From NCBI GenBank assembly GCA_017470815.1, contig JAFUXT010000001.1, positions 1-64,000 on the forward strand: 64,000 bases of DNA. The letters run 5' to 3'. The position numbers were made by a program, and so were the translations under genes. Origin of the DNA: a bacterium. GTDB taxonomy: Bacteria > Cyanobacteriota > Vampirovibrionia > Gastranaerophilales > Gastranaerophilaceae. The notes beneath the pieces are model-generated. The model searched no databases. It was not told where the DNA came from and saw nothing but the letters and a program-made list of their open reading frames with translations. Shown here one piece after another: positions 29,269 through 32,447 of this stretch; the first letter of the stretch is position 1, and every line of letters starts with the position of its first letter.

Positions 29269-30183
29269 ATGGCAATAAATTCAAATTCAAAAAAAGATTT
29301 GGAAGATTTTAAAGGGTATATTTTGGTTGAAAAAAACTTCTCCGAACATACCGCAAAAGCCTACTGTTCAGATATTTTGAGTTATCTTATATGGCTCGGA
29401 GATGAGGGTTGTGAAGGGGCAGATTTTTCAAAAATTCGTGACTACTTACACTTTATTCAAAAGTTTGACTACAAAAAAACTACAATTGCCCGAAAGATAG
29501 CATCCATAAGGACTTTCTACAAATATTTGTCAAGAGAAAGAAAAATTGAAAACAATCCGGCGCAAAATATAATTTCCCCCAAACGACCGAAATCTTTACC
29601 AAAATTCCTCTCAACAGAGGAGATAGAAGATATATTAAACAACATAAATATTTCAACTCCGGCAGGCTTCCGCAACAGAGCAATTCTTGAACTGCTTTGG
29701 GCAAGCGGAATGAGAGTTTCGGAGTTAAGCAACCTTAATTTCGGTAACCTTAACCTTGAAAACAACGAAATTACGGTATTCGGCAAAGGTGCAAAAGAAC
29801 GAATTATCCTAATTACAGACAGAGCAAAAACCTATCTGCAAAACTATATTGAAACAGCAAGACCGCTTATTGCCAAAGGTTACGATATCCCGCCAATTAA
29901 TGACAACTCTCCGGTGTTTATAAACAAAACAGGTTTCAGACTCCAAACCCGTATGATTAGAAATGTCATTAACGAAACAGTTGAAAAAATTGAACTGCCC
30001 AAAAAGGTTACACCACACATGTTTCGCCACAGTTTTGCAACACACCTCATTGAAAACGGAGCAGATTTGAGAATCGTACAAGAACTCCTCGGGCACGCAA
30101 GCATTTCAAACACTCAAATATATACCCACGTCTCAATGCAGCACATGAAAGAAGTTTACGACCAAACTCACCCCAGAGCGTAA
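29269..30183 (+). CDS. tyrosine recombinase XerC/XerD
   Basis: 304 residues, standard Xer length. The N-terminal SAM-like core-binding domain (about 10-95, with ISPKRPKSLPKFLSTEEIE linking) precedes the catalytic domain: Arg in LLWASGMRVSELSNL, HMFRHSFATHLI (HxxR), GHASISNTQIYTHVS with the following His and nucleophile Tyr. It resolves chromosome dimers at dif. Only one is present here, so C or D cannot be decided; single-Xer genomes use XerH/XerS-like enzymes, but the sequence resembles XerC/D. TATAAT at 29232-29237 is a plausible -10 box. Confidence 0.9.
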   Translation: MAINSNSKKDLEDFKGYILVEKNFSEHTAKAYCSDILSYLIWLGDEGCEGADFSKIRDYLHFIQKFDYKKTTIARKIASIRTFYKYLSRERKIENNPAQNIISPKRPKSLPKFLSTEEIEDILNNINISTPAGFRNRAILELLWASGMRVSELSNLNFGNLNLENNEITVFGKGAKERIILITDRAKTYLQNYIETARPLIAKGYDIPPINDNSPVFINKTGFRLQTRMIRNVINETVEKIELPKKVTPHMFRHSFATHLIENGADLRIVQELLGHASISNTQIYTHVSMQHMKEVYDQTHPRA

Positions 30184-31734: not shown

Positions 31735-31750
31735 ACTATTGATTTGCTTG

Positions 31751-31841
31751 CGCCGAACTTGATATAACAAGTTCTCGCCAAAATATCGCATTATAAAACC
31801 CCCGATTCTCTCGGAGGCTCTATGGTGGGCGATACAAGGCT
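31751..31841 (-). repeat. tRNA-Val 3'-end module, copy 1 (fragment)
   Basis: Read on the minus strand: the last 16 nt of tRNA-Val plus CCA, a terminator hairpin (CCTCCGAGAGAATCGGGGG), then an inverted repeat GAACTTG-N6-CAAGTTC. The rest of the tRNA is missing. Nearly identical to copies 2 and 3. Confidence 0.9.
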
Positions 31842-31931
31842 GTCTTGCTGCGCTCGCCTTCGACGTGACTACGCTTTTTGCTTTTTGTGCCTTTCGTCAC
31901 AAGCAAAAAGGCTTCGCACTTGGCTCGCTTG
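31842..31931. repeat. foldback spacer 1 between tRNA-Val modules
   Basis: 90 bp. Central stem CTTTTTGCT...AGCAAAAAG with a second stem TGTG...CACA around CCTTTCGT. It has the same architecture as spacer 2 (32023-32114) but different bases in the stems. Confidence 0.65.
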
Positions 31932-32022
31932 CGCCGAACTTGATATAACAAGTTCTCGCCAAAGTATCGCATTATAAAACCCCCGATTCTCTCGGAGGTT
32001 TTATGGTGGGCGATACAAGGCT
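31932..32022 (-). repeat. tRNA-Val 3'-end module, copy 2 (fragment)
   Basis: Same 91-bp module as copy 1 with a few substitutions; 181 bp downstream of it. Spacer of the inverted repeat is ATATAA as in copy 1. Confidence 0.9.
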
Positions 32023-32114
32023 TGTCTTGACCTGCTCGCTATAAACGGCATTTCGCATTTTGGCTTTTGTGCCTATGGCACAGCCAAAATCTGCTCCAGC
32101 CTCTGCTCGCAGGT
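32023..32114. repeat. foldback spacer 2 between tRNA-Val modules
   Basis: 92 bp forming a long imperfect hairpin: GACCTGC at the left pairs with GCAGGTC at the right; inside, ATTTTGGC pairs with GCCAAAAT and TGTGCC with GGCACA around TA. Confidence 0.75.
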
Positions 32115-32205
32115 CGCCGAACTTGATATTACAAGTTCTCGCCAAAGTATCGCATTATAAAACCCCCGATTCTCTCGGAGGCTCTATGGTGGGCGATACA
32201 AGGCT
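32115..32205 (-). repeat. tRNA-Val 3'-end module, copy 3 (part of the intact tRNA gene)
   Basis: The copy attached to the complete tRNA-Val gene, 183 bp after copy 2. Terminator CCTCCGAGAGAATCGGGGG followed by TTTTAT lies at 32163-32181. The inverted repeat is GAACTTG-ATATTA-CAAGTTC. Confidence 0.9.
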
Positions 32206-32262
32206 CGAACTTGTGACCCCTTGAATGTCGTTCAAGTGCGCTACCAACTGCGCCAATCGCCC
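32187..32262 (-). tRNA. tRNA-Val (GAC), CCA encoded
   Basis: Cloverleaf folded by eye: acceptor GGGCGAT/ATCGCCC, D-stem GCGC/GCGC, anticodon stem CTTGA/TCAAG with loop ACGACAT giving anticodon GAC, T-arm ACAAG-TTCGAGC-CTTGT. Discriminator A, and CCA is encoded. Reads GUC and GUU valine codons. Followed by its own terminator. Fragments of its 3' end (two) and 5' end (one) lie around it. Confidence 0.95.
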
Positions 32263-32447
32263 ATAAAATTATTTAATTGTTTTGCGCCCTTACCGAAACG
32301 CTTCGCTTTTTCGGGACTGCGCTACCCCTCTCGTTCCCTCACCCGAATTTCTAAATTCGCTGACGCTTATTAAGAAATTCTGCCCTCTCCCGCACACAAA
32401 CACTGCGGGCGAGGGGAATAAGATTGAGTGCCAATCGCCCAATAAAA
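32263..32447. repeat. foldback sequence between tRNA-Cys and tRNA-Val with a tRNA-Val 5' fragment
   Basis: No gene. Contains three hairpins: CCGAA...TTCGG, GAATTTCT...AGAAATTC and CCTCTCCCGC...GCGGGCGAGGGG. At 32429-32440 the minus strand reads GGGCGATTGGCA, twelve bases of which eleven match the first 12 of tRNA-Val, so the tRNA start is duplicated here. Confidence 0.7.

Follow-up and report, generated by a model that had tools for sequence, protein, structure and literature searches.

Gene-less repeat units stacked behind a tRNA-Val gene of Gastranaerophilales as candidate integrative mini-elements of the tRNA T-loop

The repeat array behind tRNA-Val(GAC)

The window analysed here, a stretch of 64,000 nucleotides (contig JAFUXT010000001.1, positions 1 to 64,000, assembly GCA_017470815.1, Gastranaerophilales), carries an array of short, structured repeat units behind the gene of a valine transfer RNA (tRNA). 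A single complete tRNA-Val(GAC) is present (32187-32262, minus strand), together with three copies of a 103-nt repeat (31739-31841, 31920-32022 and 32103-32205), of which the second and third are 94% and 89% identical to the first. Their starts are 181 and 183 bp apart. This agrees with the first-pass annotation, made from the sequence alone, which had described three copies of a tRNA-Val 3' end with terminator and the inverted repeat GAACTTG-N6-CAAGTTC at this spacing, only one of them belonging to a complete tRNA. The exact inverted repeat starts at 31755, 31936 and 32119 and nowhere else in the window; allowing two mismatches also gives three matches, against 0.3 expected. The repeated tRNA piece does include the CCA end, but it is longer than the 16 nt first proposed, spanning 18-19 nt from A58 of the T-loop through CCA (AGCCTTGTATCGCCCACCA, at 31823-31841, 32004-32022 and 32187-32205). 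Outside the window, a genome search for the full inverted repeat returned only contig C59, a 100% identical copy of this locus that probably represents assembly redundancy (genome contamination 7.3%).

Read along the tRNA, each copy runs from A58..CCA through a terminator into a short segment S (GCGATACTTTGGCGAGAACTTG), followed by 6 bases and CAAGTTCG, while the spacers between the copies are two different members, E1 and E2, of one structured repeat family. All parts of the array lie on the minus strand. In the complete gene, which is the target, the part from A58 onwards (32187-32205) is the restored copy, and it is followed by the terminator stem of unit 1 (32163-32181), by its S (GGCGAGAACTTG, 32132-32143), a T-arm copy in inverted orientation whose GA core is un-inverted, and by its L (CAAGTTCG, 32118-32125), a T-stem-like half-copy; S and L together make up the 7-6-7 inverted repeat at 32119-32138. 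Next come E1 (32023-32122, type a, GACCTGC..GCAGGTC, 100.7 bits with the covariance model R1 described below) and the first displaced tRNA-Val 3' end (A58..CCA, 32004-32022). Unit 2 shows the same order, with a terminator stem (31980-31998), S (31949-31960), L (31935-31942, inverted repeat at 31936-31955), E2 (31841-31939, type b, 95.1 bits) and the second displaced 3' end (31823-31841). The array ends in a truncated third member, of which the terminator and S (31768-31817) and L with the truncated start of a third E (31739-31761) are left. E1 and E2 are positioned exactly like insertions into a T-loop, reading CAAGTTCG / E / AGCCTTGT where the intact tRNA reads CAAGTTCGAGCCTTGT. No open reading frame of at least 80 aa was found between the copies, the units encoding no protein, and an Rfam scan of the window at gathering score returned tRNAs only, with no match to RtT.

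Unit architecture and distribution across the order

The E family was delimited by a seed alignment of 16 copies from motif searches, from which the model R1 was built. RNAalifold predicted 18 base pairs in this seed, 15 of them with compensatory changes. Across 82 distinct copies 96.2% of the cells of the fold are paired, with 316 double-change cells compared to a shuffled mean of 85, and the covariation score is 0.584, compared to 0.164 after shuffling and at most 0.15 with the partners slid. The conserved fold consists of covarying outer and inner stems around a conserved GA/GA, plus a variable hairpin; within the outer stem (GCGAGC/GCGAGC) the two facing GA dinucleotides stay constant, whereas the neighbouring pairs covary. 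In this respect the T-arm with its S is analogous to the two ends of E, both being GA-facing-GA stems capped by a hairpin, that of the terminator or the variable one of E.

Using R1, E was identified in 37 of 40 genomes of the same genus and in 100 of 117 genomes of the order, with 1-31 copies per positive genome (19 in the genome of the window). At a stricter threshold 74 of 194 genomes of the phylum were positive, every one inside the window's own family, and none of these 194 yielded an E outside the order. The relatives compared are rumen metagenome-assembled genomes. For closer inspection 84 copies were picked by model score, together with the first motif-found copies, so that old or divergent E copies are under-sampled. 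A tRNA or transfer-messenger RNA (tmRNA) gene lies upstream on the same strand of 63 of the 84, and 22 isoacceptors plus tmRNA are represented. The distance from tRNA end to E is 63-94 nt in 48 units, the other 15 being located one or more units further out; measured from A58 to the end of E, the 48 first-position units are 171-214 bp long (median 189). The right flank of E matches the 3' part of the adjacent tRNA at 12 or more of 14 positions in 50 of 63 cases (79%), compared to 0.6% for other tRNAs. The breakpoint between G57 and A58, the spacing and the order (tRNA 3' part from A58, own terminator, S, L, the roughly 100-nt E, then the displaced older tRNA 3' end) are constant across the 22 isoacceptors and tmRNA, and E types may differ within a single array. 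A model-free de novo survey of the window's genome found a displaced own 3' end behind 6 of 31 tRNA genes, with none in the control.

The target specificity extends to S, which repeats the neighbouring T-arm in inverted form as R'-GA-GAAC-L'. Its R' part is perfect with respect to the adjacent tRNA in 31 of 47 units (control 1.9%) and its L' part in 25 of 48 (control 0.6%), and the GA is kept un-inverted in 40 of 47. Since L' agrees better with the T-stem of the tRNA than with the neighbouring L (13 of 48), the 7-6-7 inverted repeat is a by-product of two T-arm copies: the GAACTTG arm is part of the inverted copy, the CAAGTTC arm is the T-stem copy beside E, and both vary with the tRNA. The annotation had likened this repeat to the arm-spacer-arm sites of tyrosine recombinases; because its arms are pieces of T-arm that change with the tRNA, it is not a classical recombinase core site.

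Insertion with displacement and its interpretation

Filled and empty loci of close relatives show what a unit brings with it. In the window's genome tRNA-His is followed directly by a terminator (CTAAAAAGCAGATAAC..) and no unit is present. In the relative G003 the same gene is followed by a different terminator (TAATAAAAATAAGCACCC..), S, L, E and ATCCCACCACCCGCCCCA, and only then by the CTAAAAAGCAGATAAC.. terminator. At tRNA-Glu the window's genome holds an older remnant without a full unit, G003 one unit and the relative G015 two, of which the one in common with G003 sits distally. These two comparisons indicate that a unit arrives with a tRNA end and terminator of its own and displaces the old ones, and that the newest unit adjoins the tRNA. 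In 26 of 40 units the own terminator is clearly unlike the displaced one. The tRNA-Val triplication itself is not fixed among relatives: besides the two E units and remnant of the window, G003 has one unit, while G015 has no full unit and keeps a remnant with the same truncated-E junction, and in another species the E types occur in reversed order.

Taken together, we interpret the array, with a probability of roughly 0.7, as stacked integrative mini-elements, non-autonomous and gene-less, that are mobilised in trans and use the tRNA T-loop as attachment site. The earlier suggestion of stacked attachment sites is thereby retained in part: the tRNA is split at the T-loop, a new 3' end is supplied, the old one is displaced and the stacks vary, but no integrase-bearing element lies between the copies and the units are only about 180 bp long. 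A link to integrases is indeed missing, yet the family is too widespread and too target-specific for this to mean that it is immobile. In the proposed mechanism, a unit of about 190 bp (A58..CCA, own terminator, S, L and E) would insert between G57 and A58, its own 3' end and terminator completing the tRNA while the resident ones are pushed downstream; later insertions would re-enter at the tRNA, so that the youngest unit would be the one nearest to it. The mobile form would be DNA, probably a small circle arising by resolution between the A58..CCA repeats, and a site-specific recombinase acting in trans would read the tandem-GA hairpins formed by the T-arm with S and by the two ends of E.

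The first candidates for such an enzyme are two tyrosine recombinases of the Xer-like type (about 293 and 305 aa), which occur in nearly all listed genomes of the genus. One of them adjoins the array in the window (29269-30183, plus strand) and, according to its profile scores (NCBIfam XerD 318 bits, cut-off 330; XerC 318, cut-off 335; PRK00283 tyrosine recombinase 300, cut-off 279), is a housekeeping-like Xer-type protein that might act in trans. Several E-carrying genomes possess no further tyrosine recombinase; G012 and G020 (96% complete), for example, carry 3 and 13 E copies, yet only two tyrosine recombinases each. An integron integrase was not recognised in the window, where this recombinase scores 143 against the IntI cut-off of 265 and fits the Xer models, this being the one recombinase of the genome compared with the IntI model. 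Integrase genes do lie beside tRNA-Arg(tct) and tRNA-Met in the window's genome, with neither S nor E on that side.

Several observations speak against mobilisation of such mini-elements. Genomes with zero E also have the Xer-like proteins, the number of E copies is only weakly correlated with that of tyrosine recombinases (rho 0.27, p 0.09), and no unit encodes an enzyme. Own and displaced terminators are similar in 14 of 40 units, those at tRNA-Val are species-typical and not unit-typical, and some seemingly empty loci (tRNA-Lys, tRNA-Gly(gcc)) are deletion scars. Moreover, the examined E copies are the best matches to a model that was seeded from tRNA-linked copies, and some E copies reside away from tRNAs, inside an element of about 600 bp that resembles a miniature inverted-repeat transposable element (MITE).

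Among the alternatives, single-strand DNA transposition has the most in its favour, even if we regard it as unlikely. Here an IS200/IS605-like or repetitive extragenic palindrome (REP)-associated Y1 transposase would recognise the hairpins and S would serve as a target-matching guide, which would suit units that are imperfect hairpins with conserved mismatches and an S complementary to the target T-arm. Y1_Tnp genes (PF01797) were found in 20 of the 40 genomes of the genus, in weak correlation with E number (rho 0.35, p 0.025). However, no PF01797 match was obtained in the window's own genome or in three others (G014, G060 and G062), despite 16-21 E copies, and a restored tRNA end together with a displaced fragment characteristically points to recombination through a shared segment.

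That the tRNA with its tail was copied by slippage or unequal crossing-over, with palindromic repeats entering the spare copies later, seems improbable as the main process. Arrays of near-identical units (tRNA-Met in one genome, tRNA-Lys and tRNA-Ala in another) show that tandem expansion occurs, and the terminators of the window are nearly alike; together with the species-typical terminators of tRNA-Val, these arrays show that tandem duplication or gene conversion takes place as well. Against duplication as the main process, however, stand the comparisons at tRNA-His and tRNA-Glu, the same G57/A58 breakpoint, spacing and S-L-E order at 22 isoacceptors and tmRNA, the new terminators differing from the displaced ones in 26 of 40 units, and the varying E types inside one array. 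The alternative origin offered by the annotation, a tRNA duplicated with its tail and then shortened, is left without support by this recurrence and by these terminators. Still less probable is an array of regulatory RNAs in which a transcribed tail (the T-arm/S hairpin and E) controls tRNA processing or yields small RNAs, mobility being incidental: the strong and conserved folding shown by E and by the tail as a whole (z = -10.3), the complementarity of S to the T-arm and the precedent of the E. coli tyrT repeats, which make RtT RNA, would fit, but S and E are located past an intrinsic-type terminator, their presence is patchy among close relatives, and members of the E families are found at unrelated tRNAs as well as within the MITE-like element.

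Related systems and a counterpart at tRNA 5' ends

The usual picture of mobile elements that target tRNA genes is one of kilobase islands with an integrase of their own, and the gene-less units of about 190 bp show the same architecture. With the islands, integrative and conjugative elements and prophages that target tRNA and tmRNA genes (PMC4383910) they share a target split inside the tRNA, a restored gene, a displaced fragment at the far end, tandem stacks and the T-loop as a known subsite. Accordingly, E is followed by the adjacent tRNA sequence from A58 in 50 of 63 cases, and the His and Glu pairs show a restored gene with new terminators and the old fragment displaced downstream on the same strand. 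In contrast to the islands, the units (171-214 bp) encode no tyrosine integrase nor any other gene, and they additionally carry a terminator, a T-arm copy in inverted orientation and a structured module that covaries. The Islander search accepts only candidates with an integrase and a length of 2 kb or more (PMC4383910), a size limit about tenfold above the length of the units, so its filters would discard them.

In E. coli, tandem units of about 180 bp lie behind tyrT, each with the last 19 bp or so of the tRNA. That case is a single locus, whereas the present units affect 22 isoacceptors and tmRNA throughout an order and include an alternating structured element. The units may recall integron attC sites (PMC2727003) in conserving structure over sequence, in an unpaired spacer enclosed by an inner and an outer stem, in a variable terminal hairpin and in stacking from a single entry; this is an analogy only, as the boxes show no sequence homology, the GTTRRRY/RYYYAAC ends are absent here, the spacer is GA/GA, the entry is a tRNA T-loop and no IntI was found in the window. 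Like MITEs and REP/REPIN palindromes, the units are short, gene-less, palindromic, multi-copy and presumably mobilised in trans; unlike them, they are site-specific to tRNA T-loops and have target-specific flanks, and no REP-type transposase was found in the window's genome. An IS110 bridge-RNA system was rejected because its enzyme is nearly absent (PF02371 in 3 of 40 genomes of the genus, and in none of the window's genome, G003 and G015).

A permissive Rfam scan of ten other loci gave no known RNA family overlapping E. One match to the 'cow-rumen-3' RNA (28.7 bits, cut-off 86.7) was discarded, as it lies beyond E and derives mostly from a 3' end common with DUF3800-XI; no member of 'cow-rumen-3' scored above the cut-off in a scan of the genus. 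At the same locus, beside a tRNA-Gly array, a segment (L086, 699-745, minus strand) resembles the 3' end of the Rfam DUF3800-XI RNA below the gathering score. An exact 20-nt motif had no match in IMG/VR. With shorter ones, two prophage-like contigs (L229 and L331) with full E units were reached, where a contig end at a tRNA 3' end is followed by displaced E units. A phage origin was not adopted: in L331, and at one of the two E sites in L229, a prophage at the same tRNA seems to have displaced the units, which resemble host DNA and not phage genes. Among the products of L331 is a 386-aa protein, a putative reverse transcriptase. Literature searches on tRNA-linked miniature or palindromic elements, Gastranaerophilales repeats, tyrT/rtT and attC retrieved no description of such units, subscription journals being largely uncovered.

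Partial copies of tRNA 5' ends are the mirror image of the 3' units. The model-free survey found partial own 5'-end copies upstream of 8 of 31 tRNA genes in the window's genome (control 0), and such copies were noted ahead of intact tRNAs at eight loci of this genome and in the window (32263-32440). In many of them a palindrome (ACTCTGCCGAG..CGAGAGG) occupies the D-loop or anticodon stem, the upstream region being duplicated along with the 5' part of the tRNA. In the window the partial 5' end of tRNA-Val (GGGCGATTGGC) lies at 32430-32440 and a palindromic insert 'D' in its D-loop, ending in GAGAGGGGTAGCGCA, at 32318-32429, both on the minus strand.

A broader reading, which we put forward tentatively and consider doubtful in its entirety, would be an undescribed recombination system whose enzyme recognises folded tandem-GA hairpins, with the T-loops of most tRNAs and tmRNA as universal entry for gene-less cassettes, S re-targeting each lineage to its own tRNA and a mirror system at the D-loop carrying promoter and tRNA 5' end. 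If confirmed, the units would be the smallest tRNA-restoring integrative elements known to us, would show re-aiming from one tRNA to another through few base changes, and would mean that tRNA terminators (on the 5' side, promoters) have been rewritten throughout an order of bacteria from gut and rumen.

Two further repeats were noted around E. The MITE-like element, found at eight loci, is non-coding, about 600 bp long, bounded by terminal inverted repeats (ACATAATATATGTTAT) and holds an internal E-like module without a tRNA. Another dispersed repeat (TACCTTTTTTCAGGACATTTGGTCGGAAG..) adjoins or truncates E units and tRNA tails at four loci.
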